Shown here: positions 3,684-16,799 of the stretch, piece by piece
How positions within the stretch are numbered: the first letter of the stretch is position 1
Layout: every line of letters begins with the position of its first letter
Source: a virus
Strand: one strand, 5' to 3'
DNA: 25,602 nucleotides
Virus record (IMG/VR): IMGVR_UViG_3300046009_001930
Span: 1-25,602 of that record
Notes under the pieces: model-generated
The model's input: the letters and a program-made list of their open reading frames with translations, nothing else
Databases searched by the model: none
Told to the model about the DNA's origin: nothing
Made by a program: the position numbers and the translations under genes

Positions 3684-5038
3684 TGTTAGGTAACTTATTC
3701 AGTAAAACAGAACAACGTTCTATAAGTTTTCAATCAATCTGGGGATCAGGCGACACGTTGGCCATGACCACAGTTGCCGGAACAAACATAGATGAAAACA
3801 CGGCCATGCAAATTACGGCTTTTTATTCTTGCGTACTTTTAATTTCTGACACGATTTCAACTCTTCCGATGGATGCCTTTGTTAGAAGAGACGGAACTCG
3901 TGTTCCTTATCGTCCACGCCCAGAGTGGGTTATGCAACCAGATGTAGAACTTGCCCGATCAGAACATTATCAACAACTTCTTGTTTCTCTTCTCCTTGAT
4001 GGAAACGCTTTTGTAAGAATCTTTAGAGATAACCGAGGAGATGTAATTAACTTAGTTGTTCTTGATCCTTTAAAAGTTGAAGTAACAAGAAATCCTGTAA
4101 CAAGAGAAATTGCGTATCGTTACGAAAACGAAAGAGATAATTTAATTTCAAAAGACGAAATGTTGCATCTTACTGAATTAAGGAAACCTGGAGATGCTAG
4201 AGGACTTTCAAGAGTTACAGAATTAAAACAAAATCTAGGATTATCTAGCGCACTTCAAGAATTCGCCGCAAGATTTTTCGGATCAGGCGCGAACCTTGGT
4301 GGTTTAATCGAACACCCTGCACAATTAACTCGTGAACAATCTAAAGATCTAGCCGATTCTTTTAGAGGACTTCATAAAGGATTAAGAAAATCACATAAAG
4401 TCGGTGTTCTTTCCGGAGGCGCTAAGTTCACAAAAACAGAAGCCGCACCAGACGAAGCACAAATGCTTGAATCTAGAAGATTAGCAATCGAAGAAGTAGC
4501 AAGAATATTTAGAGTTCCACCTCACATGATTGGAATAACTACCCCTGGAGCGATGTCTTACGCATCAGTGGAACAAAACAATATTAACTTTGTTACACAC
4601 ACGTTAAGACCTTACATAACAAAGATAGAAGAATTTTATTCAAGACTTCTTCCTAACGATGCGTTCCTAAGAATAAACGTCGATGGTTTATTGCGTGGCG
4701 ATTTTGCTACACGCATGCAAGGTTATTCAATCGGTTCACAAGCAGGATTCCTTTCAATAAATGACATTAGAAGATTCGAAGATTTAACTCCGGTAGATTC
4801 CGGAGATGTTTACAGAGTGCCATTAGCAAACGTAAATCTTGCCGCAGCAGATTTAGTAGAAACCGATAAAAAAGTTGCTATGGCACAAAAACTTGTAATC
4901 TCCGGTTTCGATCCTACGGAAACTTTAAAGGCTCTAAATCTTCCAGCAATTATGCACACCGGAGTTCCATCTACACAACTTCAACCGGTTGCACAAATTG
5001 ATCCTAATGCGCCTACAAGTGTTTATAAGGTAGATTAA
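3683..5038 (+). CDS. Portal protein, HK97 family
   Basis: 451 residues, normal for the HK97-type portal (Phage_portal family). Signs are AMQITAFYSCVLLISDTIS near the N-terminus, LLLDGNAFVRIFRD in the first third, ARFFGSGANLGGLIEH in the middle, and RRLAIEEVARIFRVPPHMIG followed by SYASVEQNNINFV in the crown/wing part. The portal is the dodecameric ring at one head vertex through which the terminase pumps DNA and to which the connectors bind. It is coupled upstream to the small membrane protein and abuts the next gene directly (stop at 5036-5038, ATG at 5039). Confidence 0.95.
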   Translation: MLGNLFSKTEQRSISFQSIWGSGDTLAMTTVAGTNIDENTAMQITAFYSCVLLISDTISTLPMDAFVRRDGTRVPYRPRPEWVMQPDVELARSEHYQQLLVSLLLDGNAFVRIFRDNRGDVINLVVLDPLKVEVTRNPVTREIAYRYENERDNLISKDEMLHLTELRKPGDARGLSRVTELKQNLGLSSALQEFAARFFGSGANLGGLIEHPAQLTREQSKDLADSFRGLHKGLRKSHKVGVLSGGAKFTKTEAAPDEAQMLESRRLAIEEVARIFRVPPHMIGITTPGAMSYASVEQNNINFVTHTLRPYITKIEEFYSRLLPNDAFLRINVDGLLRGDFATRMQGYSIGSQAGFLSINDIRRFEDLTPVDSGDVYRVPLANVNLAAADLVETDKKVAMAQKLVISGFDPTETLKALNLPAIMHTGVPSTQLQPVAQIDPNAPTSVYKVD

Positions 5039-5305: not shown

Positions 5306-7539
5306 TGCCATATTTTATAACAGATGAATCAGCAGATTGCTCAGGATGGGCAACTATTAAAGATGACGGCGAAGTTATCGGTTGTCATCAAACTAAACAA
5401 GATGCAATAGATCAGATGGTTGCCGTCTCTATTTCTGAGGATATTGAACCTGGTGGCGAAAGATTAAAATACAATAAATTAAAAAAAATAAAGTATCGTG
5501 TTTTGCCTGACAATTACAGACCATCTTTAAGTGAAGATGTTCCAGAGGGTCGCGCGTGTGGTAATTGTATTTTTTACAAAGAAGATGATGTTAAAGAATT
5601 TGCTAATGGTGAACTTCGTGCTTGGTGTGAAAAATGGGACGATTATGTTAATGGTGCATTTTATTGTAATGCTTGGCAGATGGATGAGGAATCACGCGCA
5701 CCTGCACCAAAGAAAGATCAGATTACAGGAAGCGATGAGAATAAACCCGATAGCGCTAAAGGTGCTGGAGGCAACATAGATTTTGATGCAGCCACAGAAA
5801 CTTCTTTAAGAAATAAAGTAAAAGATCATAATGACAAAATGTCGGAACTTGGAAAACCTGATTACACTCGTGCAACATTAGGTCAATTAAAAGCAGTTTA
5901 TAGAAGAGGTGCTGGTGCTTTTTCGGTTTCTCATCGTCCTGGTATGACAAGAGGGCAGTGGGCTATGGCTCGCGTTAATGCTTATTTATATTTACTCAGA
6001 AACGGCAGACCTGAGAATAAAAATTATGTAAACGACAACGATCTTCTTCCAAAAGGGCATCCTAAATCTTCTAGAAATGTTAACATTACAAATGAATCAA
6101 ACAATAGAGCGTTACCTGAAGAGTTAAACGTTGGCGATTATGCTATGTGGTTTAATGGCAATAATCTTTTACAAGGTGAAATTGTTGAAATACAATTCGA
6201 TGGTGAACTAAGAGTTCCGAATAGTGATGTAATTCTTTTAGGGACACCTTTTAATCCTGCTGCATTAATTCAAGTTTATGAAGAGATCGGTAATGTTTGG
6301 AAAGATACTAATGTTTTTGTTGGTGTTAGTTTTGATCAATTAAGAAAAGCCGAAGATTTAGATTTAGAAGAAGATGTAAAAGAAGATATGGAAGAAGAAT
6401 TTTCAGAAGAAGAAGAAGATATGCGCGCAATTAATCAAGAACCTCCAGCCTACATGCGTGCTGCAGCAAGAAGAGGATTAGAACTTAATGCCGATGGTAA
6501 AGGTGGAGATGGATTAACTGAAAAAACTATTAGAGAAGCAAGACTTATGGCCGATGGTCAAGTTTCAGACGATAAGTGGATTCGTATTGCCGCATGGATA
6601 GCAAGACACATGCCTGATTTAGATGCACCACAAAATAATGATCCTAACGATTCAGGTTATCCTGGAGCCGGACTTGTTGCACATTTACTTTGGGGATCAG
6701 GACCAAGCAAACGTGCCGCACAAAGAACTATGGAATATGCGCAAGGAGTTGTAGAAAGAATTAGAAGAGAAGAAGAGCAAGCGCGTTGGGCTAGTGTAAA
6801 TGTACAATTAAGAGAAAAGAAAGAAGAAAAAATGCCAAGTACAGTTGAACGTCGTATTAATGATGTAACTTTTGAAATTCGCCAAGGCGAAGTTGATGCA
6901 AACAAAATGACTTTCACCGGTTACGCCGCAGTTTTTAATTCACCAAGTGAACCTTTACCTTTCACCGAATTTATTATGCCTGGGGCTTTTAAGCGTTCTC
7001 TTAAATCGCGTAACGAAGTAAAACTATTTATGAATCACAACATGGATATTGTTTTAGGTTCAACAAGAGCAAAGACTTTAAGATTAACCGAAGATTCTAA
7101 AGGTTTATTAGCAGAAGCCGTTTTGCCTGATACAACAGCCGGTCGTGATCTTTCAGTTCTAATGCAACGTGGTGATGTTAATTCAATGTCTTTTGGTTTC
7201 TCAGTACCAGCAAAAGGCGATAGATGGACAAATGAGGGCATGACTCGTGAACTTCATCAAATAAGATTGCATGAAGTTTCAATAGTTACCGGATTTCCAG
7301 CCTATGAAGCAACAACGGCATCAGTAAGATCTATAGATGCTCTTGCAACTCGTACCGGCATGAGTGCTGATGTTTTAGCCGATGCTTTAACAAGATTAGA
7401 AGCCGGCGAAAACCTTTCCTTAGATCACGCTTCAACCATTAACGAAGCCGTTGCTAAATTGAAAGAATCAGTTCCTAACGAAGCCGAACTTGTAGCGATA
7501 AAACAAAAACAACTCGATCTAATGTTAAAGGCGATCTAA
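5305..7539 (+). CDS. Prohead protease with long multidomain N-terminal extension
   Basis: 744 residues from the ATG at 5305, preferred over an ATG at 5251 because it couples to the previous stop (TAATG). Residues 1-50 hold a small module (CSGWATIKDDGEVIGCH). Residues 85-121 have four Cys (85, 88, 108, 121) that could bind metal or an Fe-S cluster. Residues 160-255 hold AGAFSVSHRPGM and DNDLLPKGHP. An acidic linker (350-373) leads to a second helical module (378-490, AAARRGLELN, GAGLVAHLLWGS). The protease (about 512-744) is of the HK97/U35 type, with His578 in FMNHNMDIVLGS and Ser627/Ser629 in NSMSFGF. It would cleave the capsid scaffolding segment. Typical U35 proteases are about 200-250 residues. 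An in-frame ATG at 6832 would give a 235-residue stand-alone protease, but its upstream sequence is a purine run rather than a clear ribosome site. Confidence 0.88.
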   Translation: MPYFITDESADCSGWATIKDDGEVIGCHQTKQDAIDQMVAVSISEDIEPGGERLKYNKLKKIKYRVLPDNYRPSLSEDVPEGRACGNCIFYKEDDVKEFANGELRAWCEKWDDYVNGAFYCNAWQMDEESRAPAPKKDQITGSDENKPDSAKGAGGNIDFDAATETSLRNKVKDHNDKMSELGKPDYTRATLGQLKAVYRRGAGAFSVSHRPGMTRGQWAMARVNAYLYLLRNGRPENKNYVNDNDLLPKGHPKSSRNVNITNESNNRALPEELNVGDYAMWFNGNNLLQGEIVEIQFDGELRVPNSDVILLGTPFNPAALIQVYEEIGNVWKDTNVFVGVSFDQLRKAEDLDLEEDVKEDMEEEFSEEEEDMRAINQEPPAYMRAAARRGLELNADGKGGDGLTEKTIREARLMADGQVSDDKWIRIAAWIARHMPDLDAPQNNDPNDSGYPGAGLVAHLLWGSGPSKRAAQRTMEYAQGVVERIRREEEQARWASVNVQLREKKEEKMPSTVERRINDVTFEIRQGEVDANKMTFTGYAAVFNSPSEPLPFTEFIMPGAFKRSLKSRNEVKLFMNHNMDIVLGSTRAKTLRLTEDSKGLLAEAVLPDTTAGRDLSVLMQRGDVNSMSFGFSVPAKGDRWTNEGMTRELHQIRLHEVSIVTGFPAYEATTASVRSIDALATRTGMSADVLADALTRLEAGENLSLDHASTINEAVAKLKESVPNEAELVAIKQKQLDLMLKAI

Positions 7540-7715
7540 TGAATAAAGAAGAAGTTAAACAAGCAATTCTTAAAGTTGCAGGTTATCCAGAATCAGGTGC
7601 GATTGCTGAAATGGCTGAAGCGATGGCCGAAGAAATTTGTGGAACTAAAAAAGAAACTAAAAAATTTGATCCTGTAACCGAAACAAGAATTATCGGAGTT
7701 CAAGAAACCCGATAA
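7539..7715 (+). CDS. Small conserved-type protein before the capsid gene
   Basis: 58 residues, starts MNKEEVKQAI and ends GVQETR. It is coupled to the protease by TAATG. An N-terminal helical segment (AGYPESGAIAEMAEAMAEEI, 14-33) is followed by a Lys/Thr-rich stretch and the ending VTETRIIGVQETR. Small proteins ending in an ETR-like motif occur between protease and capsid in other actinophages as I recall. No function is known to me; a scaffold or capsid partner is possible. Confidence 0.6.
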   Translation: MNKEEVKQAILKVAGYPESGAIAEMAEAMAEEICGTKKETKKFDPVTETRIIGVQETR

Positions 7716-7736
7716 GATTTGTGCAATAATAAATCT

Positions 7737-7819
7737 AACAGGTTTGCGTGTAGCCACCAACCTTGTTACTTTACTGCTTGTGAGTGAGCCTCCAGCAGGT
7801 TATCCAATCAAGTAGTAAA
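7737..7819 (+). promoter_or_regulatory. Structured leader upstream of major capsid gene
   Basis: Two adjacent inverted repeats fill the only sizeable gap in the head operon. Hairpin 1 pairs AACAGGTT (7737-7744) with AACCTTGTT (7759-7767), one bulged base. Hairpin 2 pairs TTTACTGCTTG (7770-7780) with CAAGTAGTAAA (7809-7819), 11 pairs with one G-U, around a 28-base loop that contains a small CCT/AGG hairpin. They end 25 bases before the capsid ATG, and the Shine-Dalgarno AAGGAAAA follows. No T-run follows either hairpin, so they are not terminators. A cis-acting RNA controlling capsid translation or mRNA stability is the inference. Confidence 0.55.
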
Positions 7820-7844
7820 ACCATTTCAAAAAAAAAGGAAAACA

Positions 7845-9017
7845 ATGTCTGAATATATTAAACTTCAGCATGAAGCACGCCAAAAAGCATGGCACTCTGC
7901 AAAAGAAATTTTGGATAGAGCCGCAGCAGAAAAGCGTGATCTTACTGCAGAAGAAAATCAATCATACGAAAAAATTTCTGCTGAATTAGACGAACGCGCA
8001 CGCGTTATCGAAACTATTTCAAAAGACGAACAAAGAGCAAAAGCCGCAGCCGAAGCAATGCAAAACGTTGAACTTTCAGTTGCACCACAATCCGGAAAAT
8101 CTGATGCAGATGTTATTAGATCAATGGCGCGTGGAGAAGTACGTTCTTACAACTTCGAAAAAAGAGATGTATTAAAAAGTTCAACTGGTTCACCGGTTCC
8201 AACTTCTTTCTACGATCGAATTCTTATGTTGGCAAGATACGTTGGTGGACCACTAGAAACTTCAACCATCATCAATACTGCTGGTGGAGAGAATCTACAA
8301 ATTCCATCACAAGCAACTTACTCAACTGCTGCAGTTAGCCCAGAGGGTTCAGCAATTTCAGAATCCGACCCAACATTTAACAGTTTTGTGACTCTTGGTG
8401 CATTTAAGTATTCTTTCTTAACCCAAATTTCTCGTGAACTTGTTGAAGATGCTGGTGTCGATATTCTTGGATTCCTTGCAGAACAAACTGGTAACGAACT
8501 TGGTTATAGAGTGAACGCCGCATTAACAACCGGAACTGGTACAACCCAACCAACAGGTATCGTAACTGTTGCTGGTTCTGCCGTAACCGGAACTGCATTA
8601 AATCCAACAGCAGACAACTTGATCGACCTTGTATATTCAATCGATACAGCCGGTCGTCGTCTACCTGGTGCAGGATTTATGATGAACGCAACATCAGTAG
8701 CAAACGTGCGTAAATTGAAAGATAGCGCTGGACAATATCTATTTAGTCCATCTCTATCTGCCGATGCTCGCGACTTGCTATTGGGTTATCCAATATTCGA
8801 AAACCCAGCGATGGCAACTGCAGCATCAGCAGTTAAACCAGTGTTATTTGGTCACTTACCAAGTTACATGGTCCGTCAAGTTGGTGGAATTAAGTTAGAT
8901 CGTTCAGATGATTTTGCATTTAGCAACGATTTAATCACTTTCCGTGCAACTTTCCGAGTTGATGGAAATCTTCCACAAACTAGCCACGTTAAATACTTTA
9001 AGAGTGCAAACTCCTAA
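7845..9017 (+). CDS. Major capsid protein, HK97 fold
   Basis: 390 residues, usual for this family. Residues 1-75 are charged and helical (coiled-coil-like, with many Glu/Lys/Ala), matching the N-terminal scaffolding delta domain of HK97-type capsids that the prohead protease removes; the mature part probably starts around 90-115. The shell part shows VPTSFYDRILMLARYVGGPLE (119-139, in parts) and later GFLAEQTGNELGYRVNAALTTGTG and RRLPGAGFMMNATS, all characteristic of HK97-fold capsids. The Shine-Dalgarno AAGGAAAA lies before the ATG. It has its own structured leader and a strong terminator behind it, fitting high, separately controlled expression. Confidence 0.95.
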   Translation: MSEYIKLQHEARQKAWHSAKEILDRAAAEKRDLTAEENQSYEKISAELDERARVIETISKDEQRAKAAAEAMQNVELSVAPQSGKSDADVIRSMARGEVRSYNFEKRDVLKSSTGSPVPTSFYDRILMLARYVGGPLETSTIINTAGGENLQIPSQATYSTAAVSPEGSAISESDPTFNSFVTLGAFKYSFLTQISRELVEDAGVDILGFLAEQTGNELGYRVNAALTTGTGTTQPTGIVTVAGSAVTGTALNPTADNLIDLVYSIDTAGRRLPGAGFMMNATSVANVRKLKDSAGQYLFSPSLSADARDLLLGYPIFENPAMATAASAVKPVLFGHLPSYMVRQVGGIKLDRSDDFAFSNDLITFRATFRVDGNLPQTSHVKYFKSANS

Positions 9018-9037
9018 TAGTAATTAATCCCTAGACC

Positions 9038-9080
9038 AGAAACCCCGACGGAGCGCAGGCTGTCGGGGTTTCTGCTTTTT
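9038..9080 (+). terminator. Intrinsic terminator after the capsid gene
   Basis: A perfect 12-base stem AGAAACCCCGAC (9038-9049) pairs with GTCGGGGTTTCT (9062-9073) around a 12-base loop and is followed by GCTTTTT. It lies 20 bases after the capsid stop. It should end or strongly reduce transcription from the head operon, so downstream tail and sugar genes rely on read-through or a separate promoter. Confidence 0.92.
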
Positions 9081-9121
9081 ATGTGTAGGATTTGTTGTAC
9101 CTGCGAACAAAGGATTAAAAG

Positions 9122-10387
9122 GTGAATCGTGCCGATCGTCGTAATAAAAAATACACCGGTGAACATGTCTCCGGAACTAGCGCAAGTATTCGAAATGTTG
9201 GGATTCCCAGTAGAGGAAGAATCCTTTGGACCTCAAACGCCCCTTGGGCATCAACCGGATACGGACAACAAACGGCGCAAGTTACAAAAAGACTTAAAAA
9301 AGATAATTACGAAATAGCGATCGCTTCTAACTATGGTTTAGAAGCATCTTCAACTATTTGGGGAACTGAATATGGTGAAATTCCTGTTTATCCACGAGGC
9401 ATGGATTTGTATTCAAACGATGTTGTTCCGGCGCACATGTACGATTGGGTTAATAGAGATAAAGATGCTCCGAACGCTTTAATTACTTTGTACGATGTTT
9501 GGGTTTTCAAAGGTAAAAAATGGGATGATTGGAACGTTGCTTCTTGGGTTCCTATTGACCATCTTCCTTGTCCACCTGAAGTTCGTGATTGGTGTAAAAA
9601 AGATAACGTAACTCCTTTAGCGATGTCTAAGTTTGGTAAAGAAATGCTAGAAAGAGTAGATATCCAATCCGAATATATTCCACACGCTATTGAAAAAGTT
9701 TTTAAACCAACTAACTTTATTTATACAGCAGACAACGATAAAATTACGGCTAGAGAGTTTATTAAGATTCCGGAAGATAAATTTGTTGTCGGGATGAACG
9801 CCGCAAATAAAGGGATCGTTCCTAACAGAAAAGCCTTTGGCGAAAATCTTTTAGCCTTTTCAATGTTTGCACAAAAGCATAAAGATGCAGTTCTTTACTT
9901 GCATACAGATTTTATGGGTTCCGGTGGAATAAATCTTATGGATTTAATTAACGCCGTCGGTATCCCTAAAGAGCAAGTTAAATTCATCGATCCTTATCTT
10001 TATCGTTCAGGATTAGCCCCCGAAGTTGTTGCCGCAACTTATACGGCTATGGATGTTTTATTAGCCGTCTCAATGGGTGAGGGATTCGGAATTCCAACTT
10101 TAGAAGCCCAAGCATGCGGAACTAGAGTTATAGTTTCAGATTTCGCCGCAAGTACAGAATTAGTTGGAGAGGGATGGTTAGTCGGAGGGCAACCTTTTTG
10201 GGATGCGCAACAAAGATCTTTCTTTCATAGTCCAAGCGTTCCTGAAATAGTTGAAGCCTTAGAGAACGCTTATAACAAAGGTAGGTCGAGATCAGATCAG
10301 GCAATAGAGTTCGCTAAGTTATACGAAGCCGATACTGTATTCGAAACCTATTGGAAGCCGGTTCTAAACAAACTACTTACCAGATAG
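9122..10387 (+). CDS. Glycosyltransferase, GT4/GT-B type
   Basis: 421 residues starting at GTG (9122); MNRADRRNKK is a common phage N-terminus. The enzyme proper begins near residue 33 with ILWTSNAPWASTGYGQQT, a donor/acceptor-site loop of GT-B enzymes. The C-terminal half has VVGMNAANKG, then the nucleotide-sugar motif MGEGFGIPTLEAQACGTRVI with the paired Glu seen in GT4 enzymes, and FAASTELVGEGWLV. It would transfer a sugar from a nucleotide-sugar donor. With the next three genes it forms a sugar cassette between capsid and connector genes, where actinophage glycosyltransferases modify virion proteins. The acceptor is inferred. Confidence 0.85.
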   Translation: MNRADRRNKKYTGEHVSGTSASIRNVGIPSRGRILWTSNAPWASTGYGQQTAQVTKRLKKDNYEIAIASNYGLEASSTIWGTEYGEIPVYPRGMDLYSNDVVPAHMYDWVNRDKDAPNALITLYDVWVFKGKKWDDWNVASWVPIDHLPCPPEVRDWCKKDNVTPLAMSKFGKEMLERVDIQSEYIPHAIEKVFKPTNFIYTADNDKITAREFIKIPEDKFVVGMNAANKGIVPNRKAFGENLLAFSMFAQKHKDAVLYLHTDFMGSGGINLMDLINAVGIPKEQVKFIDPYLYRSGLAPEVVAATYTAMDVLLAVSMGEGFGIPTLEAQACGTRVIVSDFAASTELVGEGWLVGGQPFWDAQQRSFFHSPSVPEIVEALENAYNKGRSRSDQAIEFAKLYEADTVFETYWKPVLNKLLTR

Positions 10388-10444
10388 GCTTTAAACACAA
10401 AATAAAGGCAAAATTAGCGACTTTTAGGAAGAGGTAGAGCAAAG

Positions 10445-11095
10445 ATGTTGCCAGTTATGATAGTTCCGGTTTTAAGTAGACACGATATTTTAGATCGGAT
10501 GATTAAATCAATTAATTACCCTATTCGCGAATTAGTCATTATCGATAACGGCGCTAAGACTCATAGTTGGGAACCGACTTGGAATCAATGGATTAGTAAA
10601 ATTTGGCATCTCAAAATGCCGAACAATTTAGGCGTAGCCGGATCATGGAATCTTGGAATTAAATCAACCCCGATGGCCGATTACTGGGTTATCTCTAATT
10701 TTGATGTCGAGTGGGGAGGAGATAGTTTAAAAATGTTTAGTGAACTTTCTCATCCCGAAAAACTTGTTTTGTCTAATGGAACTCCGGAGTGGTGCGCTTT
10801 TTCAATCGGTTGGCAAATCGTAGACAAAGTTGGATTATTCGATGAGGCTTTTCATCCTGCCTATTTTGAAGATAACGATATGCAACGAAGAATAGAAAAG
10901 AAAGGGATGGAAGTTGTTAAATCTTTTATCCCTATCGCGCACGATAACTCTTCAACTCTAAAAGCAGGGTTTCAACAATTAAACGAACATACTTATATAA
11001 ACAATTATGATCATTACAGGTGCAAGCAAAACTATGATGATTTTTCCGAGGGTGGATGGCAAATACGTCGGAGGAGACAAAACTCATGGGATTAA
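10445..11095 (+). CDS. Glycosyltransferase, GT2/GT-A type
   Basis: 216 residues, short but complete for a single GT-A domain. Visible are the N-terminal strand MIVPVLSRHD, the nucleotide-binding VIIDNGAK (31-38), NNLGVAGSWNLGI (60-72), a DxD-like ISNFDVEW (83-90, Asn in the first acidic place) and the catalytic-loop candidate YFEDNDMQRRI (140-150). AGGAAGAGG at 10426-10433 could serve as ribosome site. The 3' end overlaps the cytidylyltransferase start by ten bases. It likely adds a sugar to a virion or DNA acceptor in concert with neighbours. The Asn in the metal motif makes donor binding less certain. Confidence 0.8.
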   Translation: MLPVMIVPVLSRHDILDRMIKSINYPIRELVIIDNGAKTHSWEPTWNQWISKIWHLKMPNNLGVAGSWNLGIKSTPMADYWVISNFDVEWGGDSLKMFSELSHPEKLVLSNGTPEWCAFSIGWQIVDKVGLFDEAFHPAYFEDNDMQRRIEKKGMEVVKSFIPIAHDNSSTLKAGFQQLNEHTYINNYDHYRCKQNYDDFSEGGWQIRRRRQNSWD

Positions 11096-11514
11096 GAGTT
11101 TATACAGGTGGTACTTTTGATTTGTTTCATGCCGGACATTTAAATCTTTTAAAGCGTTGTCGTGAAATTGCTGGTGTTAAAGGTCAAGTAATTGTTTCAT
11201 TAAACACAGATCAGTTTATTGAAAAATATAAAGGTAAAAAACCTTTAATCTCTTACGAGGATCGAAAAGCGATTCTTGAATCATGTCGTTATGTTGATTC
11301 AGTTATGGAAAACTACGGAGGAGAGGATTCTAAAGAATCAATAATTCTTGCGCAACTAATAGATGTTGTTGCAATCGGATCAGATTGGGCAAGAAAAGAT
11401 TACTATAAACAAATGAACTTCACACAAGATTGGTTAGATGAACAAGGAATAAGTTTAATATATATTCCTTACACGAAAGGAATATCTAGTACAAGTATTA
11501 AACAAAAATTATGA
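11086..11514 (+). CDS. TagD-like cytidylyltransferase
   Basis: 142 residues from the ATG at 11086, chosen because GGAGGAG at 11070-11076 is a near-ideal ribosome site; an upstream ATG at 11056 lacks one. It has the nucleotidyltransferase signature GTFDLFHAGH (9-18, HxGH), YEDRKAIL (58-65) and the closing KGISSTSIK (131-139), matching CTP:glycerol-3-phosphate cytidylyltransferases in length and motif order. Such enzymes make CDP-glycerol or similar activated alcohols; ADP-activating relatives exist, so the exact substrate is open. Placed among glycosyltransferases, it probably makes an activated building block for them. It overlaps both neighbours (the downstream one as ATGA). Confidence 0.83.
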   Translation: MGLRVYTGGTFDLFHAGHLNLLKRCREIAGVKGQVIVSLNTDQFIEKYKGKKPLISYEDRKAILESCRYVDSVMENYGGEDSKESIILAQLIDVVAIGSDWARKDYYKQMNFTQDWLDEQGISLIYIPYTKGISSTSIKQKL

Positions 11515-12023
11515 TTATTATCGGAACAACCCCAGATAGATCTCACTGGTTAAAAGATTGCATTAACTCACTCAAACAACCCTGCGTAGTTATTAGCGAT
11601 TTTGATTTTGAATTAGGTAAATTAAAATGGGCAAGCAAACAACTAAACGAAAGATTTTTCTTTTTTCAAGATTCTATAGTTTTTAAACAAACAGATTGGG
11701 TTTTTGATCTATTAAATAACTACGAACATGTTTCTTTAACAAGTGATCCGGTTGTTTATGGAACTTATATGGGGATTTATGATCCTAAGATTTTAAGGGA
11801 ACTTGAAATCCCTATCCCTATATCTAAAAAGGAATCTATAGAATATGAACTTTCTTGGACAAAAACCTATGTTGAAAAAGTTGGATCAGTACATGTCGCT
11901 TTCCCTGATCTAACTGACTCAAAAGCAACGCGAAAAGAAATAAAACATGGTCGAGAAAACTTAGTCTTGGAGAACGATTACCTAATCAAATTTAAAGGTG
12001 ATTGGGGTCAAATTGTGCATTAG
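11511..12023 (+). CDS. Shortened GT-A-like protein of the sugar cassette
   Basis: 170 residues, coupled to the cytidylyltransferase by ATGA. The opening MIIIGTTPDRSHWLKDCINS looks like the first strand and helix of a GT-A fold, and RFFFFQDSIVFKQTDWVF resembles the metal-site strand (QDS in place of DxD). GTYMGIYDPKIL follows, as in a GT2 acceptor region. The usual C-terminal catalytic acidic loop is not obvious. It may be a small GT2-like enzyme, an inactive partner, or an acceptor-binding protein. The assignment rests on pattern only. Confidence 0.5.
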   Translation: MIIIGTTPDRSHWLKDCINSLKQPCVVISDFDFELGKLKWASKQLNERFFFFQDSIVFKQTDWVFDLLNNYEHVSLTSDPVVYGTYMGIYDPKILRELEIPIPISKKESIEYELSWTKTYVEKVGSVHVAFPDLTDSKATRKEIKHGRENLVLENDYLIKFKGDWGQIVH

Positions 12024-12053: not shown

Positions 12054-12659
12054 ATGGCAATAACAAACGGCTACGCAACTTTAAATCAAGTTAAAGCCGC
12101 ACTTAGAATTACCGATTCAACCGAAGATGCTTTATTAGAAATTGCGATCGAGGCGGCATCTAGAGCGATCGACGGCAACACCGGTAGAAATTTTTATAAC
12201 GCAGGAACGGCAACAAGATACTTCGCGCCCGATGATGATTTTGTTTTATTAATAGATGATCTAGCCGGAACTGCTATAACTTTACAAACAGCAAATAACG
12301 CTGATGGTGTGTACGACGTAACTTGGGCAACTGACGATTACCAATTAGAACCTTTAAACGGAAACTCAGATGGAATTGCTTGGCCATATACAAGAATTCG
12401 TGCAATCGGAGATTACCTATGGCCGATCTTAAATGGTGAAGCACTAGCAAAAATAACCGGAGTTTGGGGCTGGACTTCAGTTCCTATTGCCGTAACTCAA
12501 GCATGTGTAATTCAATCTTCAAGAATTTATAAACGTTTAGATTCACCTCTTGGTGTTGCCGGTTTCGGCGATATGGGAGTTATGCGCGTAACTCGTGATC
12601 TTGATCCCGATGTTGCACAACTTATCGGAACTTACAGAAAAGTTCGAAACGTTGGCTAG
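12054..12659 (+). CDS. Head-tail connector, HK97 gp6-like
   Basis: 201 residues. The N-terminus YATLNQVKAALRITDSTEDALLEIAIEAASRAIDGNTGRNFY (read in parts) is the standard helical repeat of the gp6-like connector family, followed by a beta-rich part and C-terminal VTQACVIQSSRIYKR. These proteins form a ring under the portal to which the tail docks. GGAG at 12045-12048 precedes the ATG. This gene resumes the usual head-tail order after the sugar cassette. Confidence 0.88.
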   Translation: MAITNGYATLNQVKAALRITDSTEDALLEIAIEAASRAIDGNTGRNFYNAGTATRYFAPDDDFVLLIDDLAGTAITLQTANNADGVYDVTWATDDYQLEPLNGNSDGIAWPYTRIRAIGDYLWPILNGEALAKITGVWGWTSVPIAVTQACVIQSSRIYKRLDSPLGVAGFGDMGVMRVTRDLDPDVAQLIGTYRKVRNVG

Positions 12660-14547: not shown

Positions 14548-16799
14548 TGGCCATTATTGCCAGTATTATCTCTACGTTCGATCCTAGAGGTTTAAATAAT
14601 GCTAAGAAATCTTTTTCTGCTTTAACCGACTCAAACGTTTCAGGTGCTAAAAAACAACAAATAGCAATGAAACTTTTAGGTGGTGCTTTTGCTACTGCCG
14701 GAGTTGCCGCAGGTGGTTTTGCAATAAAACTTGGAGTGGATGCAGTTAGGGCTGCAATAGCCGAAGAAAAAACTATTGCTAATTTAAATAGAACTTTACA
14801 AAATCTAGGTGTTGGTTTTCAACAAACGCAGGTAGAAAATTTTATAACACAAATGCAGTTTGCTACTGGCGTTTCAGATATGCAACTACGACCTGCAATG
14901 AATCAACTTGTTCTTGCAACTAACGATGTTGCGCAAGCACAAAGAATTTTAGAACTCTCTTTAAATATTTCAGCATCAACCGGAAGAGATTTAGAATCAG
15001 TAACAATGGCTATGAGCAAGGCAGCGATCGGAAATTTTACTGCTTTAACTCGTCTTGGTGTTCCTTTAGATAAAACAATAATTAAAAATAAAGATTTAGA
15101 TGCTGCATTAACAAGTTTAGAAGATAAATTTCAAGGAGCATCTGCAGCAGCAGCCGGAACTATGGCTGGAAAGATTTCTATCCTAACCGAACGCGTAGGA
15201 GAAGCACAAGAGGCAATAGGTTATGACTTAATTCTTGCTTTACAACTTGCTGCAAATAAAATGGATGGAGTAGGTGGAGTTGCTGATTCGATTACAAATA
15301 TGGGTGATCGATTAGGTGATTTTATTGTTGGTCTTGGATATTACATTGGAGAAATTGATTTATCGATTGATGGAACAAATCGATTTACCAAGGCAATAGA
15401 AAAAACTGGGCAACAAATTGTTTTCAGTATCCTTGGACCTTTAGGTGCCGCGATTCCTGCAATAGGTGATTTGTTTGGTTCAGTTGCAGATAAAGGCGAT
15501 GAATTAAAAACTTCTAACGAAAATAATGCCCTTGTCGCTCAACTTGCTGGAGATCGATATACAGCATTAGCAAAATCTTTAGGTTATCTAACAAACTCTA
15601 CTGAAGAAGTTATAGATGTAGAAAAAGAAGAAGCCGAAGCATTAAAGGCTGCAGAAAAAGCGGCAAAAGAAAAAGAAAAAGCATTACAAGATTTACAAAG
15701 AGCACAAGAACGTATTAAAAAAACTTCACAAGACTTTGCTTCTTTTGTTGCAGGAACTAGCCCTAAAACAATACAGGGATCTCTAGATGCCGCCAAAGTC
15801 GCTGTTGATGATATGCGAAAAGAATTTAACGGAATAAGATCAGTAACAGAACAAACAGCAGATAGGTTTTCCGATCTTTCCGGAGTTGTTAAGGATGAAT
15901 TAGGTTCTGCTTTCTCATCTGCTGAAGATCAACTTCAAAGCGCTAAAGAAGCCTTTAACGAATTTAGAGATGCTATTTCCGGATCTATTACTGGAACTAT
16001 AGATTTTGCTTCTGCTATTGAAGATCAAGACTTTGTAACAGGTTTAGAAGCGCAAGCAAATACGGCGATTAAGTTTTCAGAAAAAGTTGGAAAACTTTTA
16101 GAACTTGGTTTATCAGAAAGAGCATTAAGGGAAGTTCTAGAAGCAGGTGCAGAAACCGGAACTGCGATTGCTGATCAGATTATTGCCGGTGGTTCAACAG
16201 TTGTACAAAAAGTGAATACCTTAGTTGCTTCAGTTGATAATGTTGCAAGTATCGTCGGACAAAAAGGTGCAGAAGCATTTAAGTCTGCCGGAGTTGCTCA
16301 AGGTCAAGCACTTGTAGACGGAATTAAAGAAAGTATTGTTAATGCTGCAGCAGAAATCGCTGCACTTGCTTCATCTTTAGGGTCAGTAACTATTGTTCCT
16401 CCGGTTACAAACACATTAGTTCAAGAACCAAAACCTTTACAGACTATAAAAGAACCAACTCCTACAGAATTAACTCGTACAGAAAAAATTGTTAAAGCAG
16501 CCGGAGGCGCTGGATCAACTCCTGCAAGTAGACATTACACAGCGATGGCCGCAGCGATGGGAAAAATTCGTCTTGCTGACGGAGGAATTGTTATGGGACC
16601 AACTAACGCTCTTATCGGGGAAGCCGGACCAGAAGCAGTTATTCCTTTATCAGGAACTAATTCAGTAAAAATGGGAACAACTTACAACATAACTGTTAAT
16701 GCCGGAATAGGAACTAATGGTGCTCAAGTCGGAAGAGAAATTGTAGACGCAATTAAGAAATTCGAAAGAACTTCCGGACCAGTTTTTGCGAGCGCGTAA
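14547..16799 (+). CDS. Tail tape measure protein
   Basis: 750 residues, the longest tail gene, largely helical. A hydrophobic segment near the start (LLGGAFATAGVAAGGFAIKLG, about 42-62) is followed by a helical middle with a Glu/Lys/Ala coiled coil (EKEEAEALKAAEKAAKEKEK, about 358-377). The C-terminal part has the conserved tape-measure motif LADGGIVMGPTNALIGEAGP followed by EAVIPL. It sets tail length: at roughly 0.15 nm per residue the tail would be about 110 nm. No peptidase or transglycosylase domain is obvious. It abuts the minor tail gene (stop 16797-16799, next ATG 16800). Confidence 0.92.
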   Translation: MAIIASIISTFDPRGLNNAKKSFSALTDSNVSGAKKQQIAMKLLGGAFATAGVAAGGFAIKLGVDAVRAAIAEEKTIANLNRTLQNLGVGFQQTQVENFITQMQFATGVSDMQLRPAMNQLVLATNDVAQAQRILELSLNISASTGRDLESVTMAMSKAAIGNFTALTRLGVPLDKTIIKNKDLDAALTSLEDKFQGASAAAAGTMAGKISILTERVGEAQEAIGYDLILALQLAANKMDGVGGVADSITNMGDRLGDFIVGLGYYIGEIDLSIDGTNRFTKAIEKTGQQIVFSILGPLGAAIPAIGDLFGSVADKGDELKTSNENNALVAQLAGDRYTALAKSLGYLTNSTEEVIDVEKEEAEALKAAEKAAKEKEKALQDLQRAQERIKKTSQDFASFVAGTSPKTIQGSLDAAKVAVDDMRKEFNGIRSVTEQTADRFSDLSGVVKDELGSAFSSAEDQLQSAKEAFNEFRDAISGSITGTIDFASAIEDQDFVTGLEAQANTAIKFSEKVGKLLELGLSERALREVLEAGAETGTAIADQIIAGGSTVVQKVNTLVASVDNVASIVGQKGAEAFKSAGVAQGQALVDGIKESIVNAAAEIAALASSLGSVTIVPPVTNTLVQEPKPLQTIKEPTPTELTRTEKIVKAAGGAGSTPASRHYTAMAAAMGKIRLADGGIVMGPTNALIGEAGPEAVIPLSGTNSVKMGTTYNITVNAGIGTNGAQVGREIVDAIKKFERTSGPVFASA

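Follow-up and report, generated by a model that had tools for sequence, protein, structure and literature searches.

Some mycobacteriophages encode glycosyltransferases (GTs) that act on their own particles. Che8 and Corndog, for example, use GTs of their own to glycosylate virion proteins (PMC12363180, citing Freeman 2023). For Che8, Corndog and Myrna, modification of capsid and tail tube proteins by these actinophage-encoded GTs has been demonstrated; the passages drawn on mention no cytidylyltransferase, exchange slot or RNA element (PMC12363180). GT genes within the head module are also found in phages S-CBS4, Mae-JY09 and phiPsal1. The last of these, Pontimonas phage phiPsal1 (MG835450), was found with a marine Microbacteriaceae strain (PMC6106888) and is the nearest cultured phage to the DNA analyzed here. 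The Streptomyces Stanwilliamsviridae phages Comrade and Warpy carry overlapping GT-GT-nucleotidyltransferase genes, the nucleotidyltransferase being 54–59% identical to the cytidylyltransferase described below. Their module differs in lying outside the head module and in having different GTs, and no homologue of the 170-aa gene described below was found for it.

We analyzed the whole of IMG/VR virus record IMGVR_UViG_3300046009_001930 (25,602 nt, hereafter the window), a 25.6 kb record with a siphovirus late module. Its genes run in the order ParB-like, TAGT, TerS, TerL, portal, protease, capsid, GT4, GT2, cytidylyltransferase, 170-aa gene, connector and tail genes. The left neighbor of the cassette encodes an HK97-type major capsid protein (7845..9017, + strand; PF05065, E = 2.6e-54), which we predict to be the likely acceptor, and to the right lies the head-tail connector gene (12054..12659, + strand; PF05135, phrog_442). 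An unlisted 58-aa ORF is seen at 7539–7715 between the protease and capsid genes, separated from the capsid start by ∼130 non-coding bases. The first-pass annotation had placed four genes between capsid and connector, and we found all four where it put them, in a conserved arrangement. Its statement that they interrupt the usual head gene order holds relative to a generic HK97-type module, whereas in this phage group it is the normal order.

The order capsid gene, GT4, GT2, neck is shared with phiPsal1, to which the window is 57% identical in the terminase, 44% in the capsid protein, 45% in GT4 and 43% in GT2. phiPsal1 differs in that a reverse-strand methyltransferase gene separates GT4 from GT2, both the cytidylyltransferase and the 170-aa gene are missing, and a plain terminator stands where the window has a conserved RNA hairpin. 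WhiB, an actinobacterial regulator, is encoded on four contigs of at least 32 kb from the same lineage (L073, L085, L076, L120) and on two relatives of 23–25 kb (L143, L198), and is absent from the more distant 31 kb contig of L168. As phiPsal1 is the nearest cultured phage and the longer relatives carry WhiB, the host is probably an aquatic actinobacterium.

For comparison, we collected contigs carrying kin of the capsid gene, the cytidylyltransferase or the 170-aa gene; apart from phiPsal1, every relative is a metagenome fragment. The capsid scan covered the best 80 of 274. The 85 loci with both capsid and connector were reduced to 26 non-redundant ones at 95% capsid identity; simple counts are inflated by relatedness. 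The 421-aa GT4-type glycosyltransferase (9122..10387, + strand) passes the cut-offs of PF00534 (33.1 bits) and PF13692 (36.7 bits) and matches phrog_2170 (E = 7e-32). Among the 26 non-redundant relatives (from the best 80 of 274) it is the first or second gene behind the capsid gene in every case, and the GT2 gene is present in 25. The 216-aa GT2-type glycosyltransferase (10445..11095, + strand) matches phrog_29879 (E = 1e-41) and scores 19.6 bits (E = 9e-4) against PF00535, under the cut-off of 23.3, which its phiPsal1 homologue clears at 24.6 bits. These two genes are the constant core of the cassette. Conservation of the site across all relatives rules out a stray insertion by chance. Purifying selection acts on all four genes (dN/dS about 0.04–0.17), indicating that they are in use, and no membrane segment was predicted in any of the four proteins. 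In one relative (L054:3086-4354) GT4 is broken over two frames, representing either an assembly error or a broken gene.

Alignments of related contigs show that the DNA between the GT2 stop and the connector is a slot, with contents that have been swapped among close relatives. Over 6099–11095, contig L049 and the window are 95.8% identical, and the identity ends at the last base of GT2. Beyond this point, L049 carries an MptE-like gene in place of the slot genes of the window; the left border alone lies on this contig. In five further contig pairs, which are 80–96% identical, homology is lost at or near the GT2 stop and regained 15–30 bp before the connector. These breaks in DNA identity show that the change of slot content is replacement. 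A capsid tree of 39 rows needs at least 12 changes in whether the cytidylyltransferase is present. The slot holds either the cytidylyltransferase and 170-aa genes, sometimes accompanied by a GT17 or radical-SAM/SPASM gene, or two extra GTs and a methyltransferase, a single methyltransferase, or a methyltransferase with an MptE-like gene. Other cassette variants have an epimerase and a methyltransferase ahead of GT2, or other genes with GT2 missing. The contents are glycan-type enzymes (GT2, GT17, epimerase, methyltransferase, MptE-like, radical SAM).

Modification of the host surface is a known role of some phage GTs, and swapping of sugar genes would suit a host surface that itself changes. 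In this reading the enzymes would alter a glycan of the wall or capsule and thereby exclude superinfection or free particles from receptors. Such a role has been proposed for the GTs of acI phages (PMC10202952), and P. salivibrio has a polyrhamnose wall together with 28 GTs thought to act on the wall (PMC6106888). We nevertheless consider the host surface an unlikely target. The four proteins are devoid of predicted membrane segments, no PF04464 transferase was found in 22 records, and both the place in the head module and the recurrence behind unrelated capsid genes described below fit the virion better.

The first slot gene encodes a TagD/Fom1-like cytidylyltransferase (11086..11514, + strand; PF01467, E = 6e-20). 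The first-pass annotation had its ORF positions right except here: the ORF was listed as 11056–11514, but close relatives carry in-frame stop codons upstream of the Met at 11086, and the ATG at 11086 is therefore the true start. The protein belongs to PF01467 (72.3 bits vs. a cut-off of 21) with HAGH as its HxGH motif, of which H15, G17 and H18 are invariant in our alignment. The predicted model is nearest to TagD (1coz; E 6e-12, target TM 0.84) and the CyTase domain of Fom1 (5x3d; E 6e-11, target TM 0.88), and resembles them in fold and in the CTP-site motifs HxGH, KxK and GxDW. The protein differs from both in an insert, KDYYKQMNFTQDWLDEQGI, that is near-invariant in the phage family. PF01467 and the fold comparison group it with CTP-dependent enzymes for glycerol-3-phosphate, hydroxyethylphosphonate, and choline- and ethanolamine-phosphate.

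The protein does not qualify as TagD by the curated cut-off. The score against the TagD equivalog TIGR01518 is 92.7 bits, below the curated cut-off of 165.4, and in place of the RTxGISTT motif of TagD the window has YIPYTKGISST and most phage members have PYTxxISST. This C-terminal PYTxGISST fits the Fom1 domain, which acts on hydroxyethylphosphonate, and not the RTEGISTT of TagD, the R being replaced by Y. A CDP-activated alcohol, as suggested before, is the likely product. With a score below the TagD cut-off, a Fom1-type motif and a replaceable slot, however, the product is not necessarily CDP-glycerol, which becomes one candidate among others. A search of 84,980 species genomes for the source of the gene gave nine loci; as several of these are phage-like or of ambiguous context, no bacterial pathway names the substrate. 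Members of the family also occur on other large-phage contigs (L028, L029, L030, L033, L036), where the neighbors resemble, by eye, purine nucleoside phosphorylase, carbamoyltransferase and sugar C-methyltransferase, possibly a nucleotide-sugar island.

tagD genes of Arctic marine viruses have been proposed to serve cold protection (PMC11515562), and the window gene could likewise be an auxiliary metabolic gene feeding host teichoic acid. Besides the TagD-like sequence (TIGR01518, 92.7 bits), it would agree with this that tagD was found in 16 Central Arctic vOTUs and that Aquiluna sp. is among the bacteria there (PMC11515562). We regard this as highly improbable given the score below the TagD cut-off of 165.4 and the exchanged R of RTEGISTT. 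Moreover, the gene occupies a slot in which the alternative alleles have no evident link to teichoic acid, and a polymerase is missing. We searched for a host teichoic-acid polymerase as PF04464 (CDP-glycerol transferase), which is absent from 22 records.

The second slot gene encodes a compact protein of 170 aa (11511..12023, + strand) that gave no family match. Its AlphaFold model has a pLDDT of 93. In a fold search with this model the top 50 PDB matches were almost all GT-A enzymes or related nucleotidyltransferases, at a TM of about 0.5 and none under E = 0.001 (best E 0.002). The predicted structure makes a GT-like assignment plausible but distant. The gene is present in 16 of the 17 non-redundant cassettes with the cytidylyltransferase and in none of the nine without it (from the best 80 of 274 in the capsid scan; Fisher p = 3e-6, relatedness ignored). 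As the two genes travel together, they fit a donor maker and its transferase, and the 170-aa protein is the likely partner of the cytidylyltransferase. The two observations that suggest transfer by this protein are its co-occurrence and the remote fold match of the model, and the remoteness of that match counts against the proposed role.

The pair is also found among head genes of other lineages, on the phage-like contigs L127, L130 and L131, and in L042 the cytidylyltransferase family stands with other GTs beside the head genes of an unrelated phage. Upstream of the cytidylyltransferase there is a major head protein in L127 (phrog_9953), L042 (phrog_1328) and L039 (phrog_1357), while virion or connector proteins follow downstream in L127, L130, L131 and L042. 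On the other hand, the pair lies away from head genes in other actinophage-like contigs (L172, L180–L191), and Streptomyces phages have the cytidylyltransferase in non-head regions. Nor have GT4 and GT2 any detectable sequence similarity to the mycobacteriophage records. These observations count against the virion as target.

A further alternative is that the bases of the phage DNA are the target of these enzymes, acting jointly with the products of the ParB-like gene (66–707) and the TAGT gene upstream of the terminase. The product of 707–1588 is a TAGT family glycosyltransferase (PF20691, E = 3e-42), 53% identical to proteins of T4-like Aeromonas phages annotated as HMC glucosyltransferases. 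The TAGT gene, however, is found in only one of 22 records, the window itself, whereas the capsid-side cassette is found in all relatives, and TET/JBP scores above the cut-off in none of the 22. We know of no use of a CDP-alcohol in base glycosylation, and we consider a role of the cassette in DNA modification very unlikely. The TAGT gene of the window is possibly a separate DNA-modification gene. A weak TET/JBP match is seen in the L168 record (G017; 15138–15575, minus strand) at 34.4 bits vs. the cut-off of 34.9.

Between the capsid stop and GT4 we detected a conserved RNA hairpin, HP1 (9037..9074, + strand), with a 15-bp stem and an 8-nt loop, AGCGCAGG (9052–9059), followed by CTTTTT. It is found at this place in nearly all relatives (from the best 80 of 274 in the capsid scan). 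In 26 distinct sequences, 12 of 12 core pairs are altered on both sides, and pairing is kept in 99.7% of cells, vs. 55.9% in shuffles and at most 45% when slid. The loop GCGCAGG is invariant in these 26, partly by construction since the sequences were chosen by their loop, which does not apply to the stem pairing. Folding of the window hairpin region gave z = −3.6. One clade has a second hairpin (HP2), the stem of which varies too with pairing kept.

The complement of the loop, CCTGCG, lies just upstream of the GT4 ribosome-binding site (in the window as ACCTGCG, 9099..9105, + strand), predicting a pseudoknot, and a second copy is often seen at the start codon. Three contigs, L022, L168 and L170, show a joint change, with GTAGGTT in the loop and AACCTAC at the start of GT4. 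In L168 and L170 the two are about 500 nt apart. GT4 may there have its own promoter and a leaderless start (about 4370–4400), in which case the capsid-end loop would have to pair in trans.

No Rfam family scored above its gathering score at the hairpin site (best 24 bits vs. 114), and the RNA element appears to be new. A scan of all viral contigs for loop and complement found real hairpins behind this capsid family only; other hits have stems of at most 3 bp, and L231 is of the same family with the capsid gene cut off. We also considered a plain terminator. The T-run is missing in most of the HP2 clade, yet stem pairing and loop are kept, and we rejected this explanation. A T-run does follow the hairpin in the window lineage and some others, and the window hairpin may act also as a terminator. 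Judged from these sequence patterns, the element would most likely control how strongly GT4 is translated relative to capsid; action in trans or a role at the DNA level is possible. The exchange slot and the RNA element are additions to what the first-pass annotation contained.

Taken together, we think it on balance probable that this locus in the head gene module of an aquatic actinophage is a cassette for virion modification. Several features favor decoration of the virion: the cassette lies in the head module, its cytidylyltransferase family recurs beside unrelated capsid genes, the enzymes are soluble, no teichoic-acid polymerase (PF04464) was found in 22 records, and enzymes of the outer-sugar type are rapidly exchanged. 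Of the earlier suggestion of a decorated virion, the glycosylation-type cassette fixed beside the capsid gene is observed; the virion as its target is favored, with the pair found away from capsid genes as well. In the proposed mechanism GT4 and GT2 would act in the cytoplasm and assemble a short sugar on the capsid protein or on some other protein of the virion. From the cytidylyltransferase would come a CDP-activated alcohol or a similar phosphate (CDP-glycerol or a related compound), whose activated group the 170-aa protein would transfer as an outer cap. A swap of the slot would give a different cap, and recognition of the particle could change. By base-pairing at the start of GT4 translation, the RNA element would probably limit production of the enzymes compared with that of capsid. 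A more specific version, which we hold to be doubtful, is that the pair puts a CDP-derived group of the alcohol-phosphate or phosphonate type on the capsid, as a polyol-phosphate-like exchangeable coat, and that a dedicated RNA pseudoknot between capsid gene and GT4 determines how much coat enzyme is made per coat protein.

As virion glycosylation has been published for mycobacteriophages, decoration of this kind would be of a known type (PMC12363180); the exchange slot and the cytidylyltransferase pair make the cassette a variant of it. Near-identical phages that differ in the slot are a natural experiment on coat function and make virion decoration in aquatic actinophages testable. The cassette also suggests an alternative reading of the marine viral "tagD" genes to which cold protection has been ascribed, and its RNA element adds a strongly covarying structure without Rfam entry at the boundary between capsid and enzyme genes.
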